From positions 1-30,264 of IMG/VR virus record IMGVR_UViG_3300028189_000043: DNA of 30,264 bases; one strand, given 5' to 3'. A program made the translations under genes and the position numbers. Source of the DNA: a virus. Below are positions 2,732 through 27,807 of this stretch, one piece after another. Position 1 is the stretch's first letter, and each line of letters begins with the position of its first letter. The notes below the pieces were generated by a model, which ran no database searches, was not told the DNA's origin, and worked only from the letters and a program-made list of their open reading frames with translations.

Positions 2732-3129
2732 TTTTTAGCCTTTTTAGTTAGGGATATTTTGATTTTAGTGAAGGGGGTTACTCCAGGAATTGCGATACCT
2801 TGTGCGTTTAGTTCTCTAAATGAGCCTGAAGCGGGGCGTCGTTCTAGTAAATATAGGGCATCGTTTTTAAGTATGTAGTCCTCAAATTCGTCCCAGCTTT
2901 GCACATTAGGCACTATTGATTCTGAACGACGTACGGTTGCTAAGGAGCCAGAGCCCATTTCCATGTCTTCCAGTTCCATTCGCTGTAAAATTATCGACTG
3001 TAGTTCTTCCATTTCATTGGTGAGGTCTTTAACTTTGTTTGCATATATTATCTTTTCGTTCCTTAAATTATACATCTTGTCTATGAGTTTGCCAAGACTT
3101 GTTGGGGCTGTTTGGGGCTGTTCGGGCAT
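2728..3129 (-). CDS. Coiled-coil conserved-type phage protein
   Basis: 133 aa. Residues ~20-55 form a long charged helix with heptad-like spacing (KVKDLTNEMEELQSII). A globular part follows with TVRRSESIVP, a DEFEDYILKNDALYLLERR segment and a C-terminal GVTPFTKIKISL strand, ending in a basic tail. Similar proteins accompany SNF2 helicases in phage early regions and are uncharacterised. The TAATG overlap with the helicase gene and a GGAGG box fix the start. Two ACAGCCCCA nonamers and a near-consensus promoter lie inside the first ~25 codons. Confidence 0.75.
   Translation of the reverse strand: MPEQPQTAPTSLGKLIDKMYNLRNEKIIYANKVKDLTNEMEELQSIILQRMELEDMEMGSGSLATVRRSESIVPNVQSWDEFEDYILKNDALYLLERRPASGSFRELNAQGIAIPGVTPFTKIKISLTKKAKK
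3067..3095 (-). promoter_or_regulatory. Candidate sigma70-type promoter inside a gene
   Basis: On the minus strand TTGGCA (3095-3090) and TATAAT (3072-3067) are separated by exactly 17 bp, a near-consensus -35/-10 pair. It lies inside the 5' end of the coiled-coil gene and would drive 2054-2731 and the genes beyond. Two ACAGCCCCA nonamers (3113-3121, 3103-3111) sit just upstream. A chance match within coding sequence is possible. Confidence 0.4.
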
Positions 3130-4448
3130 TAGTCCTCCAGTAGATCTAATAAGTTAGTCATTTTTGTTACCTTACTGTTTAGTTTTGCATAGGCGCGTAT
3201 ATCTATTGTATTTCGGGCGGCTATTAATATGGTTTCAGTCTTTTTAGTTTGGCCGGCTCGGTATATACGTCTATTAAACTGTTGGTATTGTTCCGCATTG
3301 TAGGTTGGTGATGCCCATATTGTGGCTACTCCTTTAGTTAATGTTAATCCGTGGGCGGCGGATGCAGGGTGTGCGTATAGCACTTGTATTAAGCCTGATT
3401 GGAAGTCTGAGATAGCGCGGTTTCGGTTTTTGATACTTACCGATCCATCTATAACTGCGTATTTTATTTTCTGTTTTTCGGCTAGCGCTATTAGGGCGTC
3501 TCGTTGGTGGGTCCAGTTGAACGCTACGATGGATTGAGGACGTTCGGCTATTAATGAGGTTATGAGTTCGTAGCGTTCACCGGCTATTTTGAATATTTGG
3601 TCGTCCCCGTAGACTGAACCTGAGGCTACTTGCATAAGTTTAGTAGCTAATGAAGCTGCGTTTACTGCTTTGACGTCACCATTAGCGAATTCTAGAAGAC
3701 ACTGGGCTTTGAGTGTTTGGTATTCCGCCATATGGCTAGGAGTTAAATTGAATTGGATAGTTCTAACGTTATTCTCGGGGATGTCGATGCAATCTTCTAA
3801 TGTGTGTCTTATGTTGATATCATGCATGAGGCCGTAAACAGCTTCTTGTATGTTGTCTTTTTCTACCCATTCGGTAAATGGGCCTCTGGATGCAGGTTCG
3901 TGAGTGGCGGATCTAAATTTCCAGTAGCTAGTGCCTAGGCGCAGTCCGTCGTCTATGAGTTTCATTTGATGCCATAGGTCTAGTATCCCATTGGGGTTGG
4001 GTGTACCTGTCATGAGGGTGCGCTTACCAAATCGACTTATTATTCTGGCTAGGGCTTTAGATCTTTGACTGGTTGGCTTTTTAAATGCGGTTGATTCATC
4101 CACGCATATGTATTCGAACCCGTTTAATAGTTCTAAATTGTCGACTAGCCATCGGGCGGCGTCGTGATTTATTAAAACTATATCCACGGTTCGGTCTGTA
4201 AAGGCTTTACGTCTGTCTTTGGGGGTAGATATCATGTAAGTTAGTTCGGGGGTAAATTTTATGATATCTTGAGCCCAAGATGGGTAGAGTATTGATTTAG
4301 GAGCGATTACGAGGGCGCGTCCAGCTATGGTTTTTAAGTGTTCTAATATACAGCGTGTCTTTCCTGTTCCTGGGTCTGAGGTTATGAAGGTGCGGTCATT
4401 AGCCGCTAAGAAATCGATGGTTTCAATCTGATGCTTAAATAGTTTCAT
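3129..4448 (-). CDS. SNF2-family (SF2) helicase/translocase
   Basis: 439 aa with the full motor. Walker A SDPGTGKT is at 24-31, motif Ia APKS at 49-52, motif II DEST at 117-120, motif III TGTP at 147-150, the second RecA lobe runs from ~305, and motif VI QQFNRRIYRAGQ is at 389-400. The family translocates on double-stranded DNA using ATP. Compact phage versions are common next to RecB/Cas4-like nucleases, as here, and probably act in recombination or replication restart. GGAGGGAG before the ATG and an ATGA overlap with the zinc-ribbon gene fix the start. No accessory domain is fused. Confidence 0.9.
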   Translation of the reverse strand: MKLFKHQIETIDFLAANDRTFITSDPGTGKTRCILEHLKTIAGRALVIAPKSILYPSWAQDIIKFTPELTYMISTPKDRRKAFTDRTVDIVLINHDAARWLVDNLELLNGFEYICVDESTAFKKPTSQRSKALARIISRFGKRTLMTGTPNPNGILDLWHQMKLIDDGLRLGTSYWKFRSATHEPASRGPFTEWVEKDNIQEAVYGLMHDINIRHTLEDCIDIPENNVRTIQFNLTPSHMAEYQTLKAQCLLEFANGDVKAVNAASLATKLMQVASGSVYGDDQIFKIAGERYELITSLIAERPQSIVAFNWTHQRDALIALAEKQKIKYAVIDGSVSIKNRNRAISDFQSGLIQVLYAHPASAAHGLTLTKGVATIWASPTYNAEQYQQFNRRIYRAGQTKKTETILIAARNTIDIRAYAKLNSKVTKMTNLLDLLED

Positions 4449-5465: not shown

Positions 5466-5577
5466 TGCGTTTCTCCGCCTGTTTAAATAATTCAGTTAGC
5501 TGGTCTTCATGGCGTGTCAGGGTTTGACTCATATGTTCCAACTGTTCTAGGATAGAATTGATAGTATCGTTAGACAT
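5401..5577 (-). CDS. 58-aa coiled-coil peptide overlapping the nuclease gene
   Basis: The frame begins MSNDTINSILEQLEHMSQ at ATG 5577, inside the last codons of the primase-helicase gene, and ends at TAG 5401 after 58 codons. Residues ~5-45 form an amphipathic, charge-rich helix with regular Leu spacing. The last ~20 codons overlap the start of the nuclease gene in another frame. No Shine-Dalgarno box is visible, so translation would depend on coupling to the gene upstream. It fills an otherwise unexplained ~100-nt gap. Confidence 0.5.
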   Translation of the reverse strand: MSNDTINSILEQLEHMSQTLTRHEDQLTELFKQAEKRNEQTALELQLPNSIRRVPPKV

Positions 5578-7885
5578 CGTTTATTTTTATGACATTTGAG
5601 GGTGTTGTAGGGGCGGCCTCTGTGAAGCCTTCGAGTTGTCCGGTCCATTTTACTTTAGTTAACAGTACTCGTTTAATGTCGTCTGGGTGTTGTTTTAACC
5701 GAGTAAAATCTAATCCGTTGTTTGAACAAATCGAGGTGAATTTATTCATTGTCACTATTTTTTTAGACGCGCCTGTTACCCATAGGTACATGCGTAGTAG
5801 CACTTCTTTCTTTATCCGACTAGTTTCTTTATTTTTTGCTTCCTCTATCCATGTCAGTACTGTTTTTTGATACGCTATGTATTCTGGTGCTTGGAAGGGG
5901 TCAGGGGAATCGATGAATTGGTCGGTGAAAAAGTCTATGTCGCCGATTAATATGGAGTAGAAGAATTCTTCGTGTGATGATCTAGATTGCTTGATCATTG
6001 TTTCGCGGGCTGCGTTCTTTAGGCTGCTTTTTACAGCGTTTTTGTTTACTTTGTATTGCCGTAAGAAATTAGCGAATTGAGTGACTTCTTGTTTAAGGGC
6101 GTCACGGAATATCTCTGGGTCGGCTACCGGTAATGGAAGAGTTTGCCGAGGCGCGACGTTCATACGGCGATCTTCGGTTTCTAGTTTCATACAAGTGGGT
6201 CGGTTAGTAGGCATTATAAAGTTGGCATAGCTTTTCCGTTTGACTCCGTTCATCCGCATTGCTCTTATTGCTACTATAGGTTCGGTGATGTATGACCTTA
6301 GCCTTGCATACTGCTGAGAGCCTTGGACGTCGTCTTTCAGTTCGAATTCGTCGATTACGCATAATAAATTTCGCTCCATGAATAGGTTTTTATCTTCGGT
6401 TACTTGGTCTGTGGTTGCCATGAATGTGTAATCGTAACCGAATATTGGCTGTAATAGTATTTCGAATAATGTTCCTTTACCGGTTCCGGTTGTACCGTGT
6501 AATATCCATGCAGTACCGGTTTTCGTACGAGTTTGGAATACAAAAGCTAACCAGTTCATAAAGGAGTTGTAGCATTCGTCGTCTACAGTTAAATGCTTAA
6601 ATAAGATTTCGCAATGGTGGGGCATTGTAGATTGGGTATCTTTAGACGCCATGTACTCTGAGGGTTTAAAGGTGTTTATCCAGCGTCTTTCTGGGCTTAT
6701 TTGTATTAAGGAAGATGGATTAAATTCTACTTCCCAGTCAGGTATGTGTTTTAAGCGATCTTCCCCGTTAGTAACCAAGAAGTCGTTAACTCTTTCTTTG
6801 GAGGACGTAGGGTGCATGTATGTTACTTCCGATGTTTCTGGGTTATATTTTACTTGCCAGTATTGGTCGAGTACTGGGTCTCGAAAACCTATGGATGTAG
6901 ATAGTTCTATACCCCCATCGGTGTTAAGTGTGATATCACCACCGCCTGATATAGCGTGGACCTTGAATTTATCGTAAGTGGTTTGACATAAGTCTTGCAG
7001 TCGGAAATTAGGTTCGCCTTTGAAGTTATAAACGATACTCGGGTGTTCTTTACTGAAATAGTACCCCCAACTATCTCCACCGTTAAGGTTTAGGTATATG
7101 AAGTTATTTGCGCGTTCTTCTATACCTGTGATTTTTACTTCTGCGGGGTCGATTACTACGAGGTCGTTTACAGGGGCATTTCGGGTTTCAAGTCCTTCGT
7201 TATTCCGTAGTTGGTTTACGGCGTCGTAGATACTGAATTCAGTTTTTGTAGGTACGAAGGTGTGAGTGGGATGGGTTCGTTTTGTTAGAATGAAGCGGTT
7301 AGTTATAGGGTCTGTTTCTTGTACCGGTTTAGCTAGGTATATTATTTTACCGTTATCATTAACTGTGATATCTAAGGGCCACTTAAGGCTGAGTTTATTT
7401 TTACTCAATGTTATGTGGTCGTAGAGGTGCTGAAAATTTAGGGCTTTTACGTGGTGTTTAATATCAGCAGGGAGTACGGGAGTTTCGAGTAGTATGAAAT
7501 AATGGCCGCGTAAGTCATCATCGTGTTGGGAGGAGGCTGAGTGCTGAAATATGTAACTAGTGTTAGGGAACCCGAGGGTATTTATTAAGTGATTTCGGTC
7601 TTTGAATGGTAAAGTATTGTGGTCGATATCTAAGATTAATAGGTTTGTTGCCGTTTGTTTAACTAATCCGGCTCTGGATTCTTTTACTAGGGGTCTAGTT
7701 AACTCGCCCTTGATTAAGCAATTCCCTTCTTGTGCGTGGAGTTTTAAAAGTTCTAACAACGATTCTAAAGTGTTAGTTTGATGACTAAATGAGGTCACTT
7801 TAGTTACATTAGGATAGCTATCTCCGGTTATTAAATTTTTAGCTAGTGCCTGGCCGTTTGCGGCGGCGAGGAAAGAAGTTTGCAT
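5570..7885 (-). CDS. Primase-polymerase / SF3 helicase fusion
   Basis: 771 aa. The N-terminal ~190 residues carry an archaeo-eukaryotic primase (PrimPol) site: L-D86-I-D88, a Ser-rich strand then G-H128-Y-F, and P-L-D172. The C-terminal half is an SF3 helicase: Walker A G464-TTGTGKGT, Walker B LLCVIDEF (507-514), motif C ending in PTN561 and a D-R-R finger at 572-574. The order and size resemble the phage NrS-1 polymerase, which starts DNA chains without a primer. No zinc motif is visible. AGGAG precedes the ATG, and an ACAGCCCCA nonamer lies ~45 nt upstream. With a separate PolA in the genome, this protein probably primes and unwinds. Confidence 0.88.
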   Translation of the reverse strand: MQTSFLAAANGQALAKNLITGDSYPNVTKVTSFSHQTNTLESLLELLKLHAQEGNCLIKGELTRPLVKESRAGLVKQTATNLLILDIDHNTLPFKDRNHLINTLGFPNTSYIFQHSASSQHDDDLRGHYFILLETPVLPADIKHHVKALNFQHLYDHITLSKNKLSLKWPLDITVNDNGKIIYLAKPVQETDPITNRFILTKRTHPTHTFVPTKTEFSIYDAVNQLRNNEGLETRNAPVNDLVVIDPAEVKITGIEERANNFIYLNLNGGDSWGYYFSKEHPSIVYNFKGEPNFRLQDLCQTTYDKFKVHAISGGGDITLNTDGGIELSTSIGFRDPVLDQYWQVKYNPETSEVTYMHPTSSKERVNDFLVTNGEDRLKHIPDWEVEFNPSSLIQISPERRWINTFKPSEYMASKDTQSTMPHHCEILFKHLTVDDECYNSFMNWLAFVFQTRTKTGTAWILHGTTGTGKGTLFEILLQPIFGYDYTFMATTDQVTEDKNLFMERNLLCVIDEFELKDDVQGSQQYARLRSYITEPIVAIRAMRMNGVKRKSYANFIMPTNRPTCMKLETEDRRMNVAPRQTLPLPVADPEIFRDALKQEVTQFANFLRQYKVNKNAVKSSLKNAARETMIKQSRSSHEEFFYSILIGDIDFFTDQFIDSPDPFQAPEYIAYQKTVLTWIEEAKNKETSRIKKEVLLRMYLWVTGASKKIVTMNKFTSICSNNGLDFTRLKQHPDDIKRVLLTKVKWTGQLEGFTEAAPTTPSNVIKINDV

Positions 7886-7937: not shown

Positions 7938-8987
7938 TTAAATATCGTCTCGGATAGCTATACCTACAGGGAATTGAGGCTTTCCGTAGGGCGTTAACGC
8001 GAAGTATCGAACTGTAATTTGTTTTCCTATATATTCGTTAGGGTGATCGACTTGGTGTTTTCGCTCTTCGTCTGTGCCCCTCATGCGCACGTTAAAGCCG
8101 TCGCATTTGATTACTCCGTTTCCGTCTTTGTCTTTACCAATATCGAGTATTTTATATTCGGTTTCTTTGAATTTTTTATATTTGAATAGATCAGCGCTAC
8201 GTTCTCCTTCTTTATACGGTCCGTCTAAACGGAGCATTACGCCTTCGTAGCCTTGTTCGACGAATGTGTCATGCCAGAAGTCTACTTCAGCGGAGCTGTT
8301 TATCTCAACGAATGGTACCGCTCGAATCATGTTAGATTTTAAGTATCCAGTGGTCGCGAGAACGCGGGTTTTGAATCGTTGGTTATATCCGCCGCCTGAA
8401 ACTACATCGAATACGCGGAATTCTAGTTTGGGGGTGTTGTCGTTAGGTTTTCTGCAAGCGGCTACGATTTCGTTTAATGGAGTATTGTGGATGTAGAGTT
8501 CTCCGTCTAATTTAAAAATACAGCCGGCTTCGTTTAATAGTTTTTCGAGGTGTGGCACATTGTAAAAGGTACCTTTGCGACTTTGGAATCCTTTACCAAG
8601 TATCCAGATAGCGCGTACCCCGTCTAGTTTTGGAGATGCGTAGACGCCATTACTCCATTGGACTTGGTGTCCTACTTTTGAGTAATCGCGGGCTAGCATG
8701 GGCTGAACGTGTGAGGTGTAGTCTAAACGATTTATGTCAGTGCTGTAGCCTTCTCGGGTTAGTCGGTTGGTGTGTTTAGCTTTGGCTTCAGCTGCAGCTT
8801 GTTGAGCGCCAGTAGTAGCGTTGGCACGCCCTACGTTTTTAGGTTCGCAGCGTGTAGTTTTGCTTATTTGTTTGCCTTTGTGTAGACCGTGAGAAGTAGT
8901 ATAAGTGTTGTTTTTGACGCTTATGGACCATTCTCGTACTTTACCTTTAGAGTCTTTTTTATATAGTGTGTCGTGGATGATTGTCAT
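7938..8987 (-). CDS. ATP-dependent DNA ligase with WGR-like N-terminus
   Basis: I start at ATG 8987, preceded by AAAGGA; an in-frame GTG at 9041 would add 18 residues that run through a conserved leader element. The 349-aa product has motif I K120-LDGVR (adenylated Lys), motif III DGE 161-163, IIIa FRVFD 190-194, motif IV EGVMLR 248-253, motif V LFKYKKF 267-273 and an OB-fold tail. The first ~80 residues look like a WGR-type domain (KVREWSISV). It seals nicks during phage replication. A leader similar to its own occurs upstream of the VWA gene. Confidence 0.92.
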   Translation of the reverse strand: MTIIHDTLYKKDSKGKVREWSISVKNNTYTTSHGLHKGKQISKTTRCEPKNVGRANATTGAQQAAAEAKAKHTNRLTREGYSTDINRLDYTSHVQPMLARDYSKVGHQVQWSNGVYASPKLDGVRAIWILGKGFQSRKGTFYNVPHLEKLLNEAGCIFKLDGELYIHNTPLNEIVAACRKPNDNTPKLEFRVFDVVSGGGYNQRFKTRVLATTGYLKSNMIRAVPFVEINSSAEVDFWHDTFVEQGYEGVMLRLDGPYKEGERSADLFKYKKFKETEYKILDIGKDKDGNGVIKCDGFNVRMRGTDEERKHQVDHPNEYIGKQITVRYFALTPYGKPQFPVGIAIRDDI

Positions 8988-9000
8988 TGTGGTGTCCTTT

Positions 9001-9060
9001 GGGTTAATAGTTGAGCAGTTTAACGTCGGTGTAATAGTCACAGTATTACTATGCTCAGGA
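9001..9060 (-). promoter_or_regulatory. 5' leader element, copy A (before ligase)
   Basis: Just upstream of the ligase ribosome site, TGAGCAGTTTAAC (plus 9012-9024) and TGCTCAGG (9052-9059) flank a small dyad GTAATA-N7-TATTAC (9031-9049). TGAGCA and TGCTCA are complementary and could close a long loop. The same 13-mer, the same 8-mer and a GGGTTAA block recur in the same order before the VWA gene (11661-11725). A shared operator or leader RNA is inferred. Confidence 0.55.
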
Positions 9061-9610: not shown

Positions 9611-10515
9611 TATATACCTCCGAAAGAATTCATTACGTTATTACGCACTTTCGTACGTACACTTTGTATAGCGGTAGATCGTTTTGCGCATATTGATGCG
9701 TTAGTGGGTGTGTACGCTAACCACATAGCATGTATGGGGATTTCTTGGTCTTCGTCAGGTCTGTATTTACGAAATCGTAACCGGATTACTGTTTTATCCC
9801 AGGCCCATACAGGGAGTATTTTAACGTCAGCCCCATCTGTGGCCGGATCAGCTTCGGGGTATAGTTTACTAGCTATGAGCCATTGGTCTGTGGATTTTAA
9901 CTGTAGTTCATTCCAGTGTACGTGTACTTTTAATTTAGGTTTGTGCTTTCCTGCGGGCCTAGTGAAGGAGGGGAGGGTGTCACGGTTAGCTAATATGTGG
10001 ACTTTAGGTCGTATAGCGGGCACTCTAAAATGTTTGGATGCGGCGACCGAATAAACTTCGGCTCTTTGTCGTATAGATTCTCTTTTTTCAGCTAATCGGG
10101 CGGGTGGGTTGTATTTATTAGGTGAGTTTTTCCAGTTTTCTGGGATTATGTATATGTTGTTTTGTTTTACAGTTATGGAGATATTTTTGGTTAGTACACT
10201 TATGTCTTGTACGAGGGTTAGAGCATCGTGACTATTTATACGGCGTAATTTACGGTTATTAGATTTCGTTTCACGGTCTCGGGCTAGAGATTTAATGTGT
10301 GCTTCATGCCAATATTTGAGGTCTGGTAAATGGGGGAGTAGAGGTTGTAGAAGTTCTATCTGTACGTCAGTTGCAGTGGAGTATTTCATGTCTCCTTGTT
10401 GGTGACGTACCGCATTAATGAACATGGATACTTTACTGCTCATACTGAGGTCGTTAGGTCCTATGGAGGCGTCGACCCATTTTAGGGCCATAGTTATGAA
10501 TTGATGGGGGTGCAT
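9610..10515 (-). CDS. Unknown 301-aa protein next to the MoxR-VWA pair
   Basis: 301 residues, basic overall, with no recognised motif. Predicted features by eye: a helical N-terminus (~1-110), a middle basic region (KHKPKLKVHVHW around 190), and a C-terminal part with alternating hydrophobic strands (VIRLRFRKYRP). There is no signal peptide or membrane span. It begins TAATG at the stop of the VWA gene with GAGG upstream, so the two are translated together, and it may be a third component of that system. Function unknown. Confidence 0.75.
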   Translation of the reverse strand: MHPHQFITMALKWVDASIGPNDLSMSSKVSMFINAVRHQQGDMKYSTATDVQIELLQPLLPHLPDLKYWHEAHIKSLARDRETKSNNRKLRRINSHDALTLVQDISVLTKNISITVKQNNIYIIPENWKNSPNKYNPPARLAEKRESIRQRAEVYSVAASKHFRVPAIRPKVHILANRDTLPSFTRPAGKHKPKLKVHVHWNELQLKSTDQWLIASKLYPEADPATDGADVKILPVWAWDKTVIRLRFRKYRPDEDQEIPIHAMWLAYTPTNASICAKRSTAIQSVRTKVRNNVMNSFGGI

Positions 10516-11642
10516 TAAGAATCCTCATTTTGGTATAAGTCTATGTGTTGGCCGAAAGGAGCATCCATGTTCTCAGTTCGAGCCCAGAAAACTGGGTATT
10601 CAGGTTCTACAGGTGGGTAATCCCAACTGCCCATATCAGTGAAATAAATGAGGGCGTTTACTTCATCTTCTGGGTTATTAAGCCTGTCAAATACTGGCGT
10701 AAAGGCGGTGCCACCTCGCCCTACTACATCTAAGGGGATTAGGTCGTTATTTGTATACTCTTTATGGAAATGTATTTCAGTATCGCATTGTATGAGTGTT
10801 AGTTTCGTTAAGTTGACTGTTTCTAATAAGTATTTTAGTTCAGCCCAGAATTGAGTTAACTCGTGTGTTTGGACGGATGCGCTCGTGTCGATGGCAATTG
10901 CTAAGTGACCTACGTTAGGTTCGTGTAATGTGGGCACGTGTATATTTCTGGTTAAGTAAATTAAGTCGGGTGGGACCCACGAATAATCAGTTTTAGTGAT
11001 GGCGCCGAATATGTTTGCCGTTTGTGTTTTCCAGTCGATTCGGGGTTTACCTAATCCTATTTGTTCTAGCGCGCCTTCAGTACCGTCGCCGCGTTGCCTG
11101 GCGGACTGTTTAGCCTCTTCGGTTAGTACTTCCCATTGTTTTTCTTGGTCTGTGGTTGTGTGGTGGGTGGGTACGGCGTCAAAGCAGTCTCCCCAGTGTG
11201 TTTTACGCCCCTTAGCGGGTTTAGGTCTTTCGTATGTTTTTGGTAGAGCCTTATAGATTTGTTCAGCGGGCATGTTAGCGTATATAGCGCTTATTAATGC
11301 TCCTTTGGGGAGAGTAAAGCCGTAAGTGTGTACTAGTGGCCAGTTTATAGCGAAATCACAAGCTATGTTCCATCTTTCAGGTTCTCGGTTACCGCGTCTG
11401 TAGGGGTGGAGGAGACCGCAGTGCAGTATTTCATGCGCGCAAACACCTAATGTTTCTGGGGGATCGAGTTCTTCGACCCATTTGGGGTCGTAGTATAGGT
11501 GAGCCCCGTCTGTGGCCATTGTGTCAGTTATCTGATCGTTGGCTATGACTGTAAGTTTAAGTGCTAGAATCCCGAAAAATGGTGATTTTCGTAGTAGCGT
11601 AGTTCGGGCCTTGATTATTTTTTCATGTGGGAGTAAGTCCAT
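10515..11642 (-). CDS. VWA-like protein with metallopeptidase domain (DUF2201 type)
   Basis: 375 aa in two parts. The N-terminal half has C-A-H70-E71-I-L-H74, a zinc-metallopeptidase-type HExxH, followed by H79. The C-terminal half is a von Willebrand A domain with the metal-binding D252-T-S254-A-S256, a G-R-G-G-T threonine and a YFTDMG aspartate. Such proteins are partners of MoxR-type AAA+ ATPases, and one (11785-12789) lies immediately upstream, which fits a chaperone-like or remodelling pair. The ATG has no Shine-Dalgarno box, but a structured leader (11661-11725) precedes it, so translational control is plausible. Confidence 0.82.
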   Translation of the reverse strand: MDLLPHEKIIKARTTLLRKSPFFGILALKLTVIANDQITDTMATDGAHLYYDPKWVEELDPPETLGVCAHEILHCGLLHPYRRGNREPERWNIACDFAINWPLVHTYGFTLPKGALISAIYANMPAEQIYKALPKTYERPKPAKGRKTHWGDCFDAVPTHHTTTDQEKQWEVLTEEAKQSARQRGDGTEGALEQIGLGKPRIDWKTQTANIFGAITKTDYSWVPPDLIYLTRNIHVPTLHEPNVGHLAIAIDTSASVQTHELTQFWAELKYLLETVNLTKLTLIQCDTEIHFHKEYTNNDLIPLDVVGRGGTAFTPVFDRLNNPEDEVNALIYFTDMGSWDYPPVEPEYPVFWARTENMDAPFGQHIDLYQNEDS

Positions 11643-11660
11643 GGTGGTTTAGTGAGTTAA

Positions 11661-11725
11661 GGGTTAAATAGGTGAGCAGTTTAACCCTGCAATCCTAAAT
11701 CGTAAGACGTGCTCAGGTCTTACGA
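11661..11725 (-). promoter_or_regulatory. 5' leader element, copy B (before VWA gene)
   Basis: This contains GGGTTAA (11661-11667), TGAGCAGTTTAAC (11673-11685) and TGCTCAGG (11710-11717), matching copy A at 9001-9060 in order and orientation. In addition, a 9-bp hairpin (11700-11708 with 11717-11725) exposes the TGAGCA block in its 8-nt loop on the minus strand. That loop can pair with the downstream TGCTCA, a possible pseudoknot. The rest of the 142-bp gap (11643-11784) holds no gene. Confidence 0.55.
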
Positions 11726-11784
11726 CGGGTTAGTAAGAAGTAGGCCGTTTATTTAGGGTCCGGCTAAGACGTGGTACGTTCCTA

Positions 11785-12789
11785 CTAAATATCCCATGTG
11801 CTATCAGCTATAAGCTGGGCGTGTTGGGCAATCCAATCTTTAATCGATTTGTTTTTCTTCATTCCGGTCCAGTGCCGTGATGCGTAGGCTAGCATCATGA
11901 ACGCATTTTCAACGGGGATCTTACCGGCTAAGATTACGAAGTTATCCCCTGTTTTATCGTCCACTTGGTATGCTAGTGATATACATATCGCGTTCATTAC
12001 TCCAGGATCTGAGGGTGCAACGAATGAATGCGGGTGGTTTAAGGCTTGTTGAGGGTCTGGTAAGTTAGCACAAGTATCGCGGAAGGCCATGAACGTTGTA
12101 GCTACGCCTTTGCCTACTAGGCCGGCTACGCATTCTCGGATGAATCGTTCTTGTGGGTTAGTCTTTAGTACATTTGATACGTATTCCCATGAACGATAGG
12201 TTGCATAAGGGTCTTGGGATTTAGCAGGGTCGAATGTCATCAGTGCATCGGGGCTAAATTTGGTGTATGCAATGACGTGCGGATGGACCTTGTTACTGGC
12301 GGCCCAATTCCAGAAGGCGTCATGGTCTTTTTCCATCTCCATATGCATTACTCGGGATACTACGTGGGCGTTGATGTTGTGTGTAGCGGCGCGGTCTTCT
12401 TTTCGGTTACCAGTAGCGCAGACGAATGAGCCCTTAGGGAGCCTTACGTCCCCCATTATTTGCTCGATTAGCAGCTGACTAAATCCATTTTGTATGGCGG
12501 GTACGCATTGCGGGAACTCGTCTATAAGAACGAGGACTGGGTCGTCGTCTGCTTTTGGCCATATTTGTAGGGGTAGGAACTTAGCTTCGTCGTTGTATGT
12601 GGATATAACTCCTTTGATATCTAGTAGATCTACAAGGGGAGCGTGAACGTTAATGAGTCGTAACTTGGCTTTTTTGGCGTACTCACGGGCGAGCGTGGTC
12701 TTCCCCATCCCAGGCGGACCTTTCAGGAAGGCGCTCAGCCCCGCTTTGTGGGCTATTCTTAGGTATTCTGGTACATCTGCTATTCTCAT
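11785..12789 (-). CDS. MoxR-type AAA+ ATPase
   Basis: 334 aa. Walker A GPPGMGKT is at 24-31, Walker B VLVLIDEF has D90-E91, sensor 1 is C-A-T-G-N128, and the likely Arg finger is in V-S-R146-V. The length and motif spacing fit MoxR ATPases, which act as hexameric remodellers together with VWA-domain partners. The VWA gene lies downstream on the same strand after a 142-bp leader, so the pair is separately tunable. AAGGAG precedes the ATG. The target in phage infection is unknown; host remodelling or virion assembly are guesses. Confidence 0.88.
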   Translation of the reverse strand: MRIADVPEYLRIAHKAGLSAFLKGPPGMGKTTLAREYAKKAKLRLINVHAPLVDLLDIKGVISTYNDEAKFLPLQIWPKADDDPVLVLIDEFPQCVPAIQNGFSQLLIEQIMGDVRLPKGSFVCATGNRKEDRAATHNINAHVVSRVMHMEMEKDHDAFWNWAASNKVHPHVIAYTKFSPDALMTFDPAKSQDPYATYRSWEYVSNVLKTNPQERFIRECVAGLVGKGVATTFMAFRDTCANLPDPQQALNHPHSFVAPSDPGVMNAICISLAYQVDDKTGDNFVILAGKIPVENAFMMLAYASRHWTGMKKNKSIKDWIAQHAQLIADSTWDI

Positions 12790-14000: not shown

Positions 14001-14204
14001 TCATTCTTTATTTTTAGGTTGTGGGGTTAGTGTAAATCCCTCTTTGTCTACTGTGCCGTATATCCAACCTTCGTTGATGGCTTTGCTTATAGCGGCTTTG
14101 CATCCCTCTTCGAATCCCTCCTCGTAACCGACGTGTTTTGCGTACGTCCAAATTAGCACCATGGCTATGATTACTGCTATTACTGCCATCTGTTCTGTAG
14201 TCAT
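14001..14204 (-). CDS. Membrane-anchored small protein (67 aa)
   Basis: 67 aa. One N-terminal transmembrane helix (MAVIAVIIAMVLIWTYA, residues 6-22) is followed by an acidic linker (GYEEGFEEG) and a cytoplasmic or periplasmic tail with KAINEGWIYGTVDKEG. The ATG sits in an ATGA overlap with the ribbon-helix-helix gene, and AAAGGA precedes it. Membrane location is well supported; the role is unknown. A lysis-related role is possible, but the gene is far from the endolysin. Confidence 0.7.
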   Translation of the reverse strand: MTTEQMAVIAVIIAMVLIWTYAKHVGYEEGFEEGCKAAISKAINEGWIYGTVDKEGFTLTPQPKNKE

Positions 14205-14470
14205 ATTGCGTTCCTTTTAGTAGGTGCCGTGGTGGGGAGAGACACTGTGCCTGGGACTGTCCCGGGTAGGGTTTGGTCTGCCGATTCCGTATACAATTGT
14301 AAGACCGCATTTCTTATTATTGAATTTATACTGGTTTGACTGTTGAGGGCTAATGTTTTTAAGCCTTGTAGTAGTGTGGGTTCAAGTCTTAGGTTTAGTC
14401 GTTCTGAGCGGCTTTCGCTGTCTATAATGAGTAACGTTTTCTGGTGTTCTAATTGATTTCGGGCGTTCAT
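14201..14470 (-). CDS. Ribbon-helix-helix-like regulator (89 aa) beside the dyad
   Basis: Residues ~23-60 (ERLNLRLEPTLLQGLKTLAL, then SINSIIRNAVLQLY) match a ribbon-helix-helix DNA-binding domain. A polar N-terminal extension precedes it and a Pro/Thr-rich tail follows. It is the first gene transcribed out of the 646-bp gene-free region and starts 66 nt from the 427-bp dyad. That is the usual place for a protein that binds such a region and regulates it. AAAGGAG precedes the ATG, with TATACT-like sequence and an ACAGCCCCA nonamer (14516-14524) upstream. Confidence 0.7.
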   Translation of the reverse strand: MNARNQLEHQKTLLIIDSESRSERLNLRLEPTLLQGLKTLALNSQTSINSIIRNAVLQLYTESADQTLPGTVPGTVSLPTTAPTKRNAI

Positions 14471-14535
14471 CTTTGCTCCTTTGTGGTTAATTTATAGTAT
14501 AAATGATATTAGTATTGGGGCTGTAAAATAATTAA

Positions 14536-14962
14536 GGTGCCATGGCACCGCTTGGGGGGGTATCTAAATAAAAGCTTCGTTTTTGGTTAAAAAGTCCACT
14601 TTGTCCACTTTTAATTTCTAAATGTCCATCTTTTATTTGCTTGTAACTCTCTGATACATAACCTATTTTTCTTAAAAGTCCATAAAGTCCATTGTTTTTA
14701 AAGTATTCACTAAGTAAAAGGCACCATAGGCACCATGGCACCACGATAAAAGGTGCCTACGGTGCCTAGGTGCCAAGCCTACACTGGCTAATAGTCTGAA
14801 AACCGTGGACTTTATGGACTTTTGAGATTTTGTTATTTATATTCAATGAGTTAGACGTAAAAAAATGTTGGACATTTAGAAACCAAAAGTGGACAAAGTG
14901 GACAAAATGGGTAGTTTCACCTAAAAAGTGTTGTTGCCCCTATATGTCGGTGCCATGGCACC
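14536..14962. repeat. 427-bp nested dyad; candidate origin or control centre
   Basis: Four pairs of inverted arms share one centre near 14748. They are: GGTGCCATGGCACC at 14536-14549 and 14949-14962; a 35-nt arm at 14594-14628 matching the reverse complement of 14869-14903 at 33 of 35 positions; an 18-nt perfect pair at 14674-14691 and 14806-14823; and triple GGCACC at 14720-14742 facing triple GGTGCC at 14752-14774. GTCCA and GGTGCC boxes are therefore repeated as iterons. No gene fits: one 70-codon minus frame (14532-14744) merely reads the repeats. A replication origin or a binding centre for the neighbouring ribbon-helix-helix proteins is inferred. Confidence 0.9.
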
Positions 14963-15116: not shown

Positions 15117-16892
15117 CTATTTAGAGTAACAATGGTCATATCCGCCTTTAGCGTCTAATGGCAGGTCGTGCGCCCATACTGGGGACGTCCGTGTTACCTG
15201 AAGCATGACATCGAGTGTTTTTTGCGCGTCCGCTTCGGGAACTACGGCTAGTATCTCATCGTGCGTGGAAGAGACAGTACGAATACCGCGACGTTCTATT
15301 TCTAACAGCTGATCGGCGATGATTACTCTCGCCAGTCCTTGGACGATGTTCTCTTGAAGGCGCGCTCCATAAATATTGCTTTTATTGTCCGTATAACCGA
15401 AAGTCCAACCTCCACCTTCATTACTTGAGTCTAGACATGGGTACCAAATGAACATACCATTAGGTAGCATTAGGTGTTCTTTATGGAATTTAACTCCTTT
15501 ACGTGTATTGTGAGTATCTGGCATCATGAAATACATATCGCCTAGATAGTTATCCATTTCCCGCCATGTATTCTTTATATTAGGGTATAAACGACGGTAG
15601 GATGCAATGGCGGATTGAGCGTCGACGTCACTGAGGAGTAGCGGGGGTAATCCCATAGGTCCAGTGGCTACAAACGCTTGAAATTTCCTCCACCCCATAC
15701 CATAACCGCAGCCCAGAACCATTACTTTACCTAATCTACGTTCGCTTTCAGTTATATGGTCAGCACGCTTATCTAAGTGGACGGCCGCAGTGATACTGTA
15801 TAGGTCTTGGCCGGTTTTTAACATATCAAGTGCTCGATATTCGTCACTCCACCATGCATTTACGCGTAGTTCTATTTGTGCGCTATCAACTACTACGATT
15901 ACATGACCTTTTGGTGCGACAATACTTCTTCTAATTTCTGAATCACGCGGTAGGTTTTGAACATTATAACCGTCGCCACCGGACCATCTACCAGTATGGG
16001 CGCCATAATATTTTAGTGGCATTGGTAGTCTATTATCAGGGCTACATTGGGCTATACTTAGTAGCTTTTTAGGTCGAGTGATAGCGATGTTTGATTTAGC
16101 GGCGAGTCTGCCTTGAAAGATATGATTAGCCTCGGGATGTTTAGCTACGCATGCCCAAAATTGGGGGTCGAGTTTAGACAGCGCCGTTTTAGGCCATTTG
16201 TTGTCTTCTCCTGCTTTGGTAGGTACTTCTATCCCTTGCTCGATTAGGTAGCGTTCGAATTTCTGGTTACTCACTAGCGTGGCTTCATCAACCCCACTAG
16301 CTTCAATTAGTGCTTGTCGTGAGTCTATAGCAGATATAAGGCTAGCGGTTATGCGTGTTTGGTCTATTTGAAGTAGAGGTTCTACGCCCCATTTTTGGGT
16401 GATATGGATGAGATCTTTTTCATCATCTGGGAATTTGTCGATTAAGAGGTCATAAAGTTTTTTAGCTAGTACAACATCATTAATAGCATATTCTTCTAGT
16501 TCAGCAGAGACAGCGGTTGAGCCTGGCGTTAAGGCGTCCCCTTTTTCTCCGAGGTTTAGTAATTTGGCTAGTCTAGCTAAGCGGTGGTCTTTTACGGGTA
16601 TCATGGCGCGGCTTAATGCGACTGTACACGTCCATCGTTTAGCAGTTACGCCGTAGTGTTGGGTTAGTATCATACCGTCGAATAGGATGTTGTGCGCTAT
16701 AACTTCACTATTAGCCCAGTCGTAGTCGGGTAGTTGATCACCGGTTATCCAGTAGGGGTCTTCATCGTTCACTTGTATAGCTATACCTAATACTTTAAAT
16801 TGAGGGTCTCTAACGTACTCAATTGTAGTCATTTTTGTTAGAGAATAGTTACGGTCGTAGTAGGTTTCAAAATCGATGAATATTTTGTCCAT
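15117..16892 (-). CDS. Family A DNA polymerase with 3'-5' exonuclease domain
   Basis: I start at ATG 16892 (MDKIFIDFET), preceded by GGAG; an upstream in-frame ATG at 17015 only reads the repeat array. The product is 591 aa. Exonuclease motifs: D7-x-E9, N68..D72 and Y135..D139. Polymerase motifs: A at D336-SAQIELR, B from R385 to G398 with K389, and C at H544-D-E. The residue equivalent to E. coli Phe762 is Leu393. The 5'-nuclease domain is absent, as usual in phages. It probably elongates DNA primed by the PrimPol. The five-unit hairpin array lies in its leader. Confidence 0.93.
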   Translation of the reverse strand: MDKIFIDFETYYDRNYSLTKMTTIEYVRDPQFKVLGIAIQVNDEDPYWITGDQLPDYDWANSEVIAHNILFDGMILTQHYGVTAKRWTCTVALSRAMIPVKDHRLARLAKLLNLGEKGDALTPGSTAVSAELEEYAINDVVLAKKLYDLLIDKFPDDEKDLIHITQKWGVEPLLQIDQTRITASLISAIDSRQALIEASGVDEATLVSNQKFERYLIEQGIEVPTKAGEDNKWPKTALSKLDPQFWACVAKHPEANHIFQGRLAAKSNIAITRPKKLLSIAQCSPDNRLPMPLKYYGAHTGRWSGGDGYNVQNLPRDSEIRRSIVAPKGHVIVVVDSAQIELRVNAWWSDEYRALDMLKTGQDLYSITAAVHLDKRADHITESERRLGKVMVLGCGYGMGWRKFQAFVATGPMGLPPLLLSDVDAQSAIASYRRLYPNIKNTWREMDNYLGDMYFMMPDTHNTRKGVKFHKEHLMLPNGMFIWYPCLDSSNEGGGWTFGYTDNKSNIYGARLQENIVQGLARVIIADQLLEIERRGIRTVSSTHDEILAVVPEADAQKTLDVMLQVTRTSPVWAHDLPLDAKGGYDHCYSK

Positions 16893-16955
16893 GCAGGTAC
16901 TCCATAGTTGTGGGTTTACCCATTGTAATATAATTGGGGGTTGAACACGTCCTTG

Positions 16956-19158: not shown

Positions 19159-19347
19159 CTAAGTGCCTAATGCTAGTAAGGCTTTAGCTGCCGCCCAGTA
19201 ATTAGCATACATCGCCTTGACGATGAACTCAGGACCGACCCAAGCACCTAGTGCCCAGTACTTATTAATTTTTAATAAAGTCATAGCAATAACCATAGTT
19301 AAGTTAAACACAGACCATATAGCCGAGCACATCTTGGTTATATTCAT
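19159..19347 (-). CDS. Small hydrophobic membrane protein (62 aa)
   Basis: 62 aa with a hydrophobic stretch at ~7-25 (CSAIWSVFNLTMVIAMTLL) and a second, Trp/Ala-rich one at ~31-60 (WALGAWVGPEFIV, YWAAAKALLALG), consistent with two membrane helices. A holin-like role can be imagined from size, but the endolysin is on the other strand and nothing else supports it. The ribosome site is weak, and the start codon lies in the left arm of a 25-bp inverted repeat that could hide it. Confidence 0.5.
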   Translation of the reverse strand: MNITKMCSAIWSVFNLTMVIAMTLLKINKYWALGAWVGPEFIVKAMYANYWAAAKALLALGT

Positions 19348-19399
19348 CGCACAATGGCCTATTTACCATGGACAGCGATGAATATAGCCGAGATGTGCT
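19326..19399. repeat. 25-bp inverted repeat over a start codon
   Basis: 19326-19350 matches the reverse complement of 19375-19399 at 23 of 25 positions, with a 24-nt spacer. Both mismatches become G-U pairs in plus-sense RNA, giving an unbroken 25-bp stem; in minus-sense RNA they are A-C mismatches. The left arm contains the ATG at 19347, and the right arm contains a promoter-like box shared with the SSB upstream region. Confidence 0.85.
19375..19392 (-). promoter_or_regulatory. Promoter-like box, copy 2
   Basis: On the minus strand CTCGGCTATATTCATCGC lies ~28 nt upstream of the 62-aa membrane gene. It matches CTCGGCTATATTGATTGC, which lies ~30 nt upstream of SSB, at 16 of 18 positions. TATATT could serve as a -10 element. 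A near copy on the plus strand (19333-19350) faces it. Confidence 0.5.
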
Positions 19400-19561: not shown

Positions 19562-19918
19562 TTATGCCTCCTTCTTCTTCTTAGATTTAACCTTCTTCGA
19601 GTCGCAGAACTCTATTGAGGTCGCGATGACTTCGGTTATCCACCGTGTGTCTCCTTTGACCTCGTATGTTCTGGTTTCCAAGCGGCCTTGAACGCAGATC
19701 TTTGACCCTTTGCCCACGTACTTCTTGCAGGCGGTGGCCAACGGTCCCCACGCAATTACTCTGTGCCACTGCGTAGTTTCAACGAGCTTACCTTTCTTAT
19801 CGGTATACTTGCTGTTGGTTGCCAATGTGATGGTAACCTTCTTTGACCCTGACTCGAACTTCTTGACCTCAGGTTTCTTACCTGTGTGACCAAGCAATGT
19901 AACTGTATTGATGCTCAT
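19562..19918 (-). CDS. ssb: Single-stranded DNA-binding protein
   Basis: I start at ATG 19918 (MSINTVTLLGHTGKKPEVKK), preceded by AGGAG and AAGGA; an outer TTG at 19951 adds 11 residues with no support. The 118-aa product is a bacterial-type OB fold: VTITLATNSKY, TTQWHRVIAWG, CKKYVGKGSKICVQGRLETRTY. The usual acidic DDDIPF tip is missing; instead the protein ends in KKVKSKKKKEA, which is basic. It coats ssDNA for the PrimPol, PolA and recombination enzymes. It is first in the minus block, with its own promoter-like box and terminator. Confidence 0.93.
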   Translation of the reverse strand: MSINTVTLLGHTGKKPEVKKFESGSKKVTITLATNSKYTDKKGKLVETTQWHRVIAWGPLATACKKYVGKGSKICVQGRLETRTYEVKGDTRWITEVIATSIEFCDSKKVKSKKKKEA

Positions 19919-19947
19919 GTCCTTACTCCTATTTAATGTGCGTAATT

Positions 19948-19965
19948 GCAATCAATATAGCCGAG
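19948..19965 (-). promoter_or_regulatory. Promoter-like box, copy 1 (SSB)
   Basis: On the minus strand CTCGGCTATATTGATTGC stands ~30 nt upstream of the SSB ATG. The same box is found before the 62-aa membrane gene. No good -35 hexamer is visible, so a phage-specific activator or polymerase may be involved. Confidence 0.5.
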
Positions 19966-20179: not shown

Positions 20180-20536
20180 ATGAGTCGTCTTAGCCCTCAC
20201 TTCCAGAGGTCAGAGTTCGAGTGCCCTTGTGGACTGTGCAACACTGATCCTGTAGTTGACCATACTTTAATCGAAGTATTGGAGGACGTAAGAACCCATT
20301 TCGACAAGAGCATCACCGTGACTAGCGGGACTCGGTGCATATACCATAATATATCCGTAGGAGGGAGCGAGGAGTCCCAGCACCTAACCGGACGGGCGGC
20401 GGACATCATCGTACGGTCTCGGGCCCCGCATGAAATAGTCGAGTACCTAGACAATAAGTACCCAAATACCCTCGGGATCGGTTCGTACGCTACTTTCACG
20501 CATGTGGATAGTCGCACTAAACGAGCGAGGTGGTGA
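20180..20536 (+). CDS. Endolysin, M15-type L,D/D,D-peptidase
   Basis: 118 aa, a single catalytic domain of the peptidase M15 (D-Ala-D-Ala carboxypeptidase-like) family. T-S-G-T-R52 is followed by S-Q-H68-L-T-G-R-A-A-D75 and T-H108-V-D; H68, D75 and H108 are the expected zinc ligands. It cleaves peptidoglycan peptides at lysis. No signal peptide is present, so release would need a holin or another route, and no clear holin gene adjoins it. The first late gene, with a perfect AAGGAGG. Confidence 0.88.
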   Translation: MSRLSPHFQRSEFECPCGLCNTDPVVDHTLIEVLEDVRTHFDKSITVTSGTRCIYHNISVGGSEESQHLTGRAADIIVRSRAPHEIVEYLDNKYPNTLGIGSYATFTHVDSRTKRARW

Positions 20537-25733: not shown

Positions 25734-25743
25734 GGAGCATATG

Positions 25744-26505
25744 ATGGAAGAAGAATTTGAGCAGGGATTCGCAGATGCAGTTAATGGGGAACCGGAAGTA
25801 CAGACCGAAGAGCTTGTAGCCGAAGAGTCTGAAGAGCCTGTAGCCGAAGAGTCTGAAGAGCCTGTAGCCGAAGAGTCTGAAGAGCCTGTAGCCGAAGAGT
25901 ATGAGAATGTTCAGGCCCGAGTGGTGGAAGTGGAACATCAAGCGGACTCTGATAGCGGGCGTGTATCCGCGCTGTCTCGTAAGTTGTACGAAACTAGACA
26001 AGGAATGCCTACAGCGCTAACTGAGGGGAGTCCGGAACATACGTTTGATAAATGGAACACTTTAAAGGAAGAGTATCCTGATATCGCAGGGGGTACAGCC
26101 GAAAAATTAGGGGAGTTAGAGGCTCGAGTTGAGCGCATGGTGGAGGATCGGTTAGCTCCTATCCGAGAAATGGAAGAACAACGGTACATTGATAGTCAGG
26201 TAGCGCAAGTGAAAGGAGCGTACCCGGATTGGCAGGATACCGTCCATAGCGATGATTTTAGTGGTTGGTTAGGTAAACAACCGTTAAAAGTGCAGGATTT
26301 GAAGGGATCCATGGAATCAGAGGATTACATTTATCTTTTGAAGTGTTATAATGCAGATAAGTCAGAGCAAGTCGAAGAGATACGATCTTCTCGCGCGAGC
26401 ACGCTAAAGAGTAATGTAGCGGTTCCGAAGAGGGGTCCATCCAGGCCACCAGGTCCACCTGATGACTTCGAATCCGCATTCGCGTATTACGCGCAGAAGG
26501 ATTAG
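25744..26505 (+). CDS. Scaffold protein
   Basis: Of two adjacent ATGs I prefer 25744, which gives AAGGAG a better spacing. The ~253-aa product is highly acidic in its first 60 residues because of three exact copies of an 8-residue VAEESEEP unit, then helical (LGELEARVERMVEDRLAPI), and ends with basic and Pro-rich segments (VPKRGPSRPPGPPDD) that could contact the capsid protein. The location between portal and major capsid, charge and helix content fit an internal scaffold. No protease motif is seen. Confidence 0.82.
   Translation: MEEEFEQGFADAVNGEPEVQTEELVAEESEEPVAEESEEPVAEESEEPVAEEYENVQARVVEVEHQADSDSGRVSALSRKLYETRQGMPTALTEGSPEHTFDKWNTLKEEYPDIAGGTAEKLGELEARVERMVEDRLAPIREMEEQRYIDSQVAQVKGAYPDWQDTVHSDDFSGWLGKQPLKVQDLKGSMESEDYIYLLKCYNADKSEQVEEIRSSRASTLKSNVAVPKRGPSRPPGPPDDFESAFAYYAQKD
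25816..25887 (+). repeat. Three exact 24-bp in-frame repeats
   Basis: GTAGCCGAAGAGTCTGAAGA plus GCCT repeats at 25816-25839, 25840-25863 and 25864-25887 without mismatch, then a partial unit. It encodes the acidic VAEESEEP octapeptides of the scaffold. Exact identity at wobble positions implies recent expansion. Confidence 0.92.
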
Positions 26506-26655
26506 ATTTGCTAGGTACGAGTTAGGTCCCTTTATTGCGGCTTAACTCCTCTGCCACGATACTGAAGTAGTACGACGGTCTAGCAGAATGCCAGCCCCTC
26601 GTTAAGAGAGCTTCGAAGAATATATTCGTTTATCTTTTAACCAAGAGGAGCCATC
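26506..26655 (+). promoter_or_regulatory. Intergenic control region before the capsid gene
   Basis: No gene is seen in these 150 bp. It holds an 8-bp hairpin with one G-U pair (26519-26526 with 26541-26548) and a perfect 10-bp palindrome GAATATATTC (26618-26627) ~30 nt before the capsid ATG. This could supply a -10-like element or operator. AAGAGGAG then precedes the capsid start. A separate promoter for capsid production is plausible. Confidence 0.45.
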
Positions 26656-27807
26656 ATGGCTGAAAATTACCTAACATCAGGTGCGGAAAACGCACTATTT
26701 CGTAGTACAGGCGGCGCGGGCAATGAACCAACGTCTTCAACTGCGGCCGCATTAACCAATTACGGCAACATATCACAACGTACAGCGGCTTATGCTGCCA
26801 AGCAGATGCTTGAGCATGCACAACCGATCCTTGTACTATCTAAATTCGGGCAATCTAAACCGATGCCTAAAAATTCATCCGACACTATCGCATTTCGTAG
26901 ACCTAAACCACTAGGTGTACAGTATGCAGCGGACGGTATCACTCCAAAAAGTCTTGTCGAGGGTACACCTCCAACCGAGCAACAGGTCAAGTACGAAGAC
27001 GTATGGGTTAAATTAAACCAGTATGGCGGTTTAGTTAAAATCACTGACGTTGTTCAGGATCTATCTGAGGATCCAGTTTTAAGTGACGCATCAATGTTAT
27101 GTGGCGAGCAAGCCGCAGAAACCCTTGAGATGCTTACTTGGGGCGTTATCAGAGGTGGATCTAACGTATTTTGGGCGGGTAAGCTCGATTCTAACGGCAA
27201 GCCAACTAAAGCGACTAGTCGCGGCGGAGTAGCGGGCGTAGTCAATTTAGGGCAGATTCGCGCGGTTACACGACAGCTTAAATCGGCTAGAGGTAAACCG
27301 GTTACGTCTATGATGGGCAGTTCAGTTAACTTCGGTACTGAAGCGGTCGAGGGCGGTTATATTGCCTTTTGTCATACAGATTGCGAGAACGATATTCGTG
27401 AATTACCTGGTTTTATCCACCTAGCGGATTACGGATCTCGTAAACCCCTAGCCCCGGAAGAGATCGGTTCTTGCGAGAACGTACGTTTCTTGATGTCTCC
27501 TTTACTACTACCGTTCCCTGATTCAGGAGCTTTAATTTCTGGCGACGCGGCAGGCATGGTCTCTTCTGGTGAGACGACCCCGAAAGCAGATGTTTATCCG
27601 ATCGTTATTATCGCTAAGCATGCGTTTGGTTTAGTACCGTTGAAGGGCGCTAAAGCGATTACACCAACAGTACTTAATCCAGGAACTCCATCGAAATCAG
27701 ACCCTTTAGGTCAGATCGGGTTCGTAGGTTGGAAATCATGGTTCGCGGCAACTATCTTGAATGAGACGTGGATGTCTCGGTTCGAGGTAACTGTAACAGA
27801 ACTATAA
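26656..27807 (+). CDS. Major capsid protein, N4-gp56 family
   Basis: 383 aa. Diagnostic segments in order: RTAAYAAKQMLEHAQPILVL, FGQSKPMPKNSSDTIAFRRP, EGTPPTEQQVKYEDV, LNQYGGLVKITDVVQDLSEDPVLSDA, GEQAAETLEM, the RELPGFIHLADYG stretch and the closing PGTPSKSDPLGQIGFVGWKSW. This matches the N4-gp56-type HK97-fold capsid family. It is flanked by a strong AGGAG and followed by a terminator, as usual for a high-level capsid gene. Codon choice looks slightly richer in C-ending codons than in its neighbours, consistent with heavy expression. Confidence 0.95.
   Translation: MAENYLTSGAENALFRSTGGAGNEPTSSTAAALTNYGNISQRTAAYAAKQMLEHAQPILVLSKFGQSKPMPKNSSDTIAFRRPKPLGVQYAADGITPKSLVEGTPPTEQQVKYEDVWVKLNQYGGLVKITDVVQDLSEDPVLSDASMLCGEQAAETLEMLTWGVIRGGSNVFWAGKLDSNGKPTKATSRGGVAGVVNLGQIRAVTRQLKSARGKPVTSMMGSSVNFGTEAVEGGYIAFCHTDCENDIRELPGFIHLADYGSRKPLAPEEIGSCENVRFLMSPLLLPFPDSGALISGDAAGMVSSGETTPKADVYPIVIIAKHAFGLVPLKGAKAITPTVLNPGTPSKSDPLGQIGFVGWKSWFAATILNETWMSRFEVTVTEL

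Follow-up and report, generated by a model that had tools for sequence, protein, structure and literature searches.

The window analysed here is the complete 30,264-bp viral record IMGVR_UViG_3300028189_000043, and the element considered is a large inverted repeat (dyad) of 427 bp at 14536-14962, which is probably a replication origin of the phage. From 19951 down to the left end of the window, genes point leftward, and rightward structural genes begin at 20180. The dyad, with its common centre at 14748.5, sits inside a 646-bp gap between the gene of a family A DNA polymerase (PolA) and that of an 89-aa Arc-like protein. From left to right, the locus comprises the following features:

14201..14470, minus strand: 89-aa Arc-like protein (Arc-like repressor in PHROG, E 7e-4), which may bind the GGTGCC palindromes
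14536..14549, no strand assigned: left outer palindrome GGTGCCATGGCACC, of the form GGTGCC-NN-GGCACC
14592..14608, plus strand: box pair GTCCACTTTGTCCAC with 9-bp spacing, facing the centre
14608..14675, no strand assigned: AT-rich interval of the left arm, 75% A+T, candidate opening site
14624..14628, plus strand: single box GTCCA, mirror partner at 14869-14873
14644..14656, minus strand: IHF-like site TATCAGAGAGTTA, fitting WATCARNNNNTTR and aligning with the site AATCAAAGACTTA of the nearest relative (L003, see below)
14676..14692, plus strand: box pair GTCCATAAAGTCCAT with 9-bp spacing, part of the 18-nt perfect pair
14720..14742, no strand assigned: three GGCACC boxes left of the centre (mirror scan)
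14752..14774, no strand assigned: three GGTGCC boxes right of the centre (mirror scan)
14805..14821, minus strand: inverted box pair GTGGACTTTATGGAC
14824..14888, no strand assigned: AT-rich interval of the right arm, 75% A+T, candidate opening site
14841..14853, plus strand: IHF-like mirror copy ATTCAATGAGTTA, differing from the consensus at one position and lying exactly opposite 14644-14656 across 14748.5
14869..14873, minus strand: single box TGGAC (mirror scan)
14889..14905, minus strand: inverted box pair GTGGACAAAGTGGACAA
14949..14962, no strand assigned: right outer palindrome GGTGCCATGGCACC, GGTGCC-NN-GGCACC
15117..16895, minus strand: PolA (PF00476, E 1.7e-25), adjoining the dyad

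The dyad is the strongest of the record. In an ungapped mirror scan with a half-width of 215, 113 of 215 pairs are mirrored at 14748.5, against a window mean of 52.7 (sd 6.45) and 83 pairs at the runner-up unrelated place. The first-pass annotation of this DNA had proposed aligning the region with itself and folding it. When 14536-14962 is aligned with gaps to its own reverse complement, the score lies at z 34 relative to shuffles, and the DNA folds as one giant hairpin of -108 kcal/mol compared with -44.5 in the shuffles (z -13.15). The same annotation described four inverted pairs of different sequence around one centre. The 35-nt arm (14594-14628 against 14869-14903, 33/35 matches), the 18-nt perfect pair (14674-14691 against 14806-14823) and the outer and inner GGTGCC boxes are all present. 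However, the GGTGCC pairs lie 1-3 bases off the common centre; the three nested GGCACC/GGTGCC pairs at 14720-14774 have their centres at 14747 to 14747.5. Nor are the layers four unrelated sequences, since each long arm is a copy of the other, non-box sequence (TTTCTAAATG) included.

The left arm carries five GTCCA boxes (14594, 14603, 14624, 14678 and 14687), each with an exact mirror TGGAC partner (14899, 14890, 14869, 14815 and 14806, respectively). Record-wide, GTCC pairs at a 9-base spacing are confined to four places, 14594 and 14678 in direct and 14807 and 14891 in inverted orientation; GGTGCC-NN-GGCACC is found only twice, at 14536 and 14949. Read inward from both sides, the order of the boxes is >> > >> core << < <<. 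Four of the five AAAGTGG copies in the 30 kb are inside the dyad. The IHF consensus WATCARNNNNTTR is matched perfectly at 14644-14656 and with one mismatch at the mirror position, 14841-14853. When checked against the iteron layout of phage-inducible chromosomal islands (PICI) and Staphylococcus aureus pathogenicity islands (SaPI), the dyad shows opposed box pairs and intervals of 75% A+T within the arms, while the exact centre is GGTGCC-rich with 43% A+T.

The nearest relative is the 37,933-bp record IMGVR_UViG_3300013111_000348 (L003, also G001), which is 70% identical to the window in PolA, 68% in PrimPol, 87% in the MoxR ATPase and 90% in the terminase. Its corresponding gap also contains a dyad, whose arms measure 52 nt (83%), 23 nt (100%), 28 nt (100%) and 15 nt (100%), and this dyad is also the strongest of its contig. 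Aligned in syntenic orientation, the L003 dyad pairs with window positions 14472-14846. The GTCCAC/GTCCAT boxes of the window correspond to GTCCC/GTCCAC boxes in L003; the 9-bp spacing, whose conservation the first-pass annotation had proposed to check, is unchanged. The IHF-like boxes also match up (TAACTCTCTGATA in the window against TAAGTCTTTGATT); L003 has a perfect site at 8170 and one ATCAAnnACTTA inside its dyad. The stem-loop shape is kept (fold z -13.2 in the window and -13.8 in L003) with the box letters altered. Judged by these alignments, the L003 dyad is orthologous to that of the window, and the loss of symmetry in relatives, which had been named as evidence against a function, is not seen at this place. 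If the two arms changed together, they would be expected to be more alike within a genome than the boxes are between genomes. Within-genome arm likeness is 84-100%, above the between-genome likeness of the boxes, and the two genomes thus suggest such a joint change.

The GGTGCC core is present in both genomes, and in both the GGTGCC-NN-GGCACC palindromes are confined to the dyad; they are an added layer in these two close relatives. The Arc-like gene also lies beside the dyad in both, the proteins being 43% identical as a whole and identical in the strand SERLNLRLEPTLL. Of three ribbon-helix-helix (RHH) genes proposed earlier near the dyad, it alone matches an Arc-like family: the 81-aa product has a sub-threshold match to DUF6364, and the 66-aa product matched no family. 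Among other relatives, L005 (PolA 60%) breaks off within an array of boxes of the GTCCCACTTGCCCACTT type, and the terminase relatives, one of them 98% identical, stop short of the dyad. Queries with the MoxR ATPase and RHH proteins returned the L003 contig alone, and most PolA-relative loci at 35-39% identity have no such dyad above noise in the ungapped scan. No nucleotide relatives of the window were found among annotated phages.

The candidate initiator is encoded in the leftward block together with other replication genes:

3129-4448, leftward block: helicase-like protein (named from our own reading of the sequence)
5570..7885, minus strand: PrimPol with a superfamily 3 (SF3)-type helicase, DUF5906 and a VapE-like domain, candidate initiator
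7938-9041, leftward block: ligase-like protein (likewise our own reading)
19562-19951, leftward block: SSB, replication gene

The structural model of PrimPol (pLDDT 88.9) matches best the C-terminal region of NrS-1 polymerase, followed by SaPI PriRep1 bound to double-stranded DNA and the SaPI5 primase-helicase. For the helicase part, the closest solved structure is that of NrS-1 polymerase (TM 0.78 on the target). A putative archaeo-eukaryotic primase (AEP) domain was recognized by eye from the invariant D86-x-D88 and H128. The C-terminus of the model has the element order H-E-H-H-E-E of a winged helix; a structure search with this part returned the NrS-1 C-terminal region first and then several winged-helix proteins at non-significant E. 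This part diverges faster than the remainder of PrimPol. The ratio of C-terminal to N-terminal identity is 0.76 in phage pairs sharing a box word against 0.60, which is only suggestive of the box word tracking the C-terminal part because relatedness was uncontrolled.

The more distant relatives of PrimPol comprise KPP25-like Pseudomonas phages and 80 retained viral loci, which are not phylogenetically independent. In several loci, the stretch directly upstream of the PrimPol gene contains arrays of 7-9-bp boxes, with tandem pairs opposed around an AT- or CT-rich core. The box words differ:

TTCCAAT: L108, L122, L133, L152, L163
GGTTCC: L128, L144
CTAGCA: L134, L145, L150
AATGAGA: L129, L131
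GATTACAC: L096

Repeat content upstream of PrimPol is in the top 10% of the locus in 24/73 loci and in the top 5% in 15/73. Self-inverse alignment gives a dyad with z >4 in 14/72 PrimPol-upstream regions and in 2/121 control stretches, a comparison biased in favour of the upstream gap since the controls, taken at fixed offsets, are mostly coding. The word ATCAAnnACTTA, which falls within the IHF consensus, was counted 12 times in PrimPol-upstream regions and never in 40 shuffles of them; it is 66 times denser there than elsewhere and is mirrored in L096. The repeat-rich candidates upstream of or near PrimPol in L097 and L143 were rejected as coding repeats. L144, a PrimPol phage contig, has about 12 tandem copies of TTTTGTGGAATTTTTGTAGGGG-like units at 2140-2400.

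In the complete genome of KPP25, the noncoding region 26,219-26,895 contains a 300-bp dyad of inverted iterons around an AT-rich core, the strongest of that genome (128 vs 82). Its PrimPol is 32% identical to that of the window. Unlike the window, KPP25 has GTTACGA/GTCACGA boxes and no GGTGCC palindromes, and its dyad lies 12 kb upstream of the PrimPol gene. The cumulative skew of KPP25 was not decisive for an origin, and no description of 26,219-26,895 as an origin was found in the literature searched. No box array and no more than a single 23-nt inverted pair were present in the scanned gaps of Aeromonas phage phiA008.

Exact search of viral contigs for GTCCACTTTGTCCAC retrieved phages with GTGGACA arrays beside other primase-helicases, namely AEP-AAA_25 (L188, which additionally has AAATCAATGAGTTA), DUF927 (L207/L240 and L252) and DUF5906 (L193). 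The recurrence of GTGGACA arises by selection, because the box word served as the search key; the informative part is that multi-box matches fall in noncoding arrays, some of them beside replication genes. Such arrays flank AT-rich stretches in L188, L193, L207/L240, L252, L184, L204 and L251.

Several known systems resemble this arrangement. In PICI/SaPI origins, an AT-rich region is always flanked by two sets of iterons (PMC6092414). There, as proposed for the window, a primase/SF3-helicase protein acts as the initiator, and both PriRep1 on double-stranded DNA and the SaPI5 primase-helicase are among the matches of the PrimPol model. However, the iterons of the window are arranged as a nested dyad of exact mirror symmetry that has a GGTGCC core and an IHF-like box, the dyad is not located 3' of the initiator gene (PrimPol 7885-5570, minus strand; dyad 14536-14962), and a tailed phage is concerned rather than a satellite. 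Plasmids of the pRN1 family combine an AEP-SF3 protein with a large stem-loop whose shape is conserved more than its sequence, and the same was predicted for phage BIP-1 (PMC4234260). A probable AEP-SF3 replication protein and a large inverted repeat, kept in shape and poorly in sequence, are shared with the window. Unlike the iteron-free stem-loop of pRN1, which has about 100 nt and lies just 3' of the replication gene, the element described here has about 430 nt, carries iterons and is 6.6 kb away. The SCCmec protein Cch2 requires AAGTG iterons and binds its origin via the C-terminal domain (PMC7581432). AAGTG is also present in the outer box pairs of the window, but Cch2 uses three direct iterons only, its binding is unaffected by deletion of the inverted repeats and its helicase belongs to another family (PMC7581432).

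NrS-1 polymerase (PMC8718748, PMC7102993), which provides the closest solved helicase structure, has a shorter and more efficient start site, GTGG/GTGA (PMC8718748), and GTGG occurs in the GTCCAC-type boxes of the window. Sequence similarity to NrS-1 is confined to the helicase region, and the noncoding gap preceding the NrS-1 primase gene, when scanned for repeats, showed short hairpins only. An NrS-1-type start site at TTTGGTTA had been suggested within the dyad; the word is present but at chance frequency (2 found vs 1.79 expected), and this candidate was rejected. Across four dyads, 37/47 GTG trinucleotides face the centre, in agreement with the GTGG/GTGA start sites of NrS-1 polymerase. 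GTG/AAGTG was nevertheless rejected as a universal box, as the TTCCAAT, CTAGCA and AATGAGA families lack GTG; inward priming at GTG is therefore not general.

Because of the PICI/SaPI, pRN1-family and Cch2 systems, reading the dyad as an origin is natural. We consider it a replication origin of the iteron type that the phage PrimPol-SF3 helicase opens and that resembles PICI/SaPI and pRN1 origins, with a probability of roughly 0.7; most likely it is an unusually symmetric form of this type. PrimPol would bind the boxes via its winged-helix-like C-terminal domain. A ring of SF3 helicase could then assemble on each arm, aided by IHF bending and possibly by hairpin extrusion, and the rings would open the AT-rich arms. 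The primase domain would start DNA strands on the exposed template, and PolA and SSB would take over the primed strands. The GGTGCC palindromes are probably a second, regulatory class of sites. They may be bound by the adjacent Arc-like protein, which is a guess, and might serve to control the neighbouring promoter and/or origin firing.

Several observations weigh against an origin of this kind. The dyad is 6.6 kb from the PrimPol gene in this phage, and an array directly upstream of the gene is found in only a minority of PrimPol relatives, for which the positional controls consisted mostly of coding sequence. The dyad region is covered by just one close relative. The winged-helix assignment consists of a secondary-structure order and weak structural matches, and a lone match to the IHF consensus is near chance record-wide (3 found vs 2.7 expected). 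Third-position GC skew of the plus strand is about +0.49 to the left and about +0.2 to the right of the dyad. It is thus positive on both sides, and a steady bidirectional fork pair is therefore unsupported: of the bidirectional origin proposed in the first-pass annotation, the origin is the best-supported reading and the bidirectionality is not upheld. An early origin followed by another mode of replication is compatible with this skew. The GC skew of the plus strand is mostly positive window-wide despite the reversal of gene direction at 20 kb, a hint of a replication mode with constant strand roles.

A purely regulatory function is an unlikely alternative. According to it, the GGTGCC palindromes are operators of the Arc-like protein, the 9-bp tandem GTCCA boxes belong to another RHH protein, and the whole switches the early operon starting at 14470 with no replication start. 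RHH proteins commonly bind short tandem or palindromic boxes. The Arc-like gene adjoins the dyad in both genomes with its DNA-contact strand unchanged, and the palindromes occur nowhere else in either. However, such a hub does not predict box arrays upstream of PrimPol in phages with other box words, the conserved IHF-like box there or the AT-rich arms between opposed box sets, and promoter-like matches are at chance. The multi-site regulatory hub proposed earlier may be true alongside the origin, with the palindromes as a second box class beside the Arc-like gene.

It is far less probable that the hairpin is an RNA element or a terminator between polA and the downstream operon. T-rich tails follow the GGTGCC stems of the minus strand at 14742-14720 and 14549-14536, but terminator-like matches are near chance (3 vs 1.4), no known RNA family was matched in Rfam, and a terminator needs no 427 bp with mirrored boxes at 9-bp spacing and a mirrored IHF-like box. 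Least credible is that the dyad serves in packaging or end processing (pac/cos, telomere resolution) or was left behind by a palindromic mobile element: large nested palindromes are typical of telomere-resolution sites and the arms are copies of one another, but the dyad is more than 6 kb from the terminase gene (22051), its centre departs from a perfect palindrome, those open reading frames of the window that were searched included no recognizable protelomerase- or transposase-like product, and the dyad is orthologous and in place in L003.

The origin reading can be extended, tentatively and with the odds somewhat against it, to PrimPol-helicase phages in general. These would share an origin class set by symmetry and not by sequence, in which opposed iteron pairs have letters tracking the C-terminal DNA-binding domain of PrimPol, the arms stay mirror-identical by concerted change and an IHF-like box is conserved; in the window, the whole 430 bp could extrude as a hairpin recognized by the initiator. 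Replication start sites are not established for most phages with self-priming polymerases. The dyads give a concrete candidate origin for one uncultured phage and for the cultured Pseudomonas phage KPP25 (26,387-26,686), and the architecture of opposed iteron pairs, AT-rich stretches and an IHF-like box is searchable despite differences in letters. If symmetry is what is conserved, this would be a natural system for the study of initiator-site co-change and of hairpin recognition.

A second inverted repeat lies near the SSB gene (19326-19399, 25-nt arms, 92%). It is kept in L003 at 3698-3799, with 24-nt perfect arms and the same arm sequence core, and is the second-strongest dyad of both the window and L003; it is also found near L270 826 and L271 226. 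Elsewhere, a 692-aa gene whose product looks like a zinc-finger/Toprim primase with a RepA-like ATPase is followed closely downstream by CGTTACAA iterons in both orientations (L288:4844-4994). No transfer RNA was found in the window. The replication gene block also encodes a MoxR-like AAA ATPase beside a VWA/DUF2201 metallopeptidase-like protein (10515-12789), and the ATPase, at its 87% identity to L003, is one of the best-conserved early proteins. A protein with a tandem acidic repeat (SEEPVAEE) is encoded at 25741-26505, in the early part of the structural gene block.
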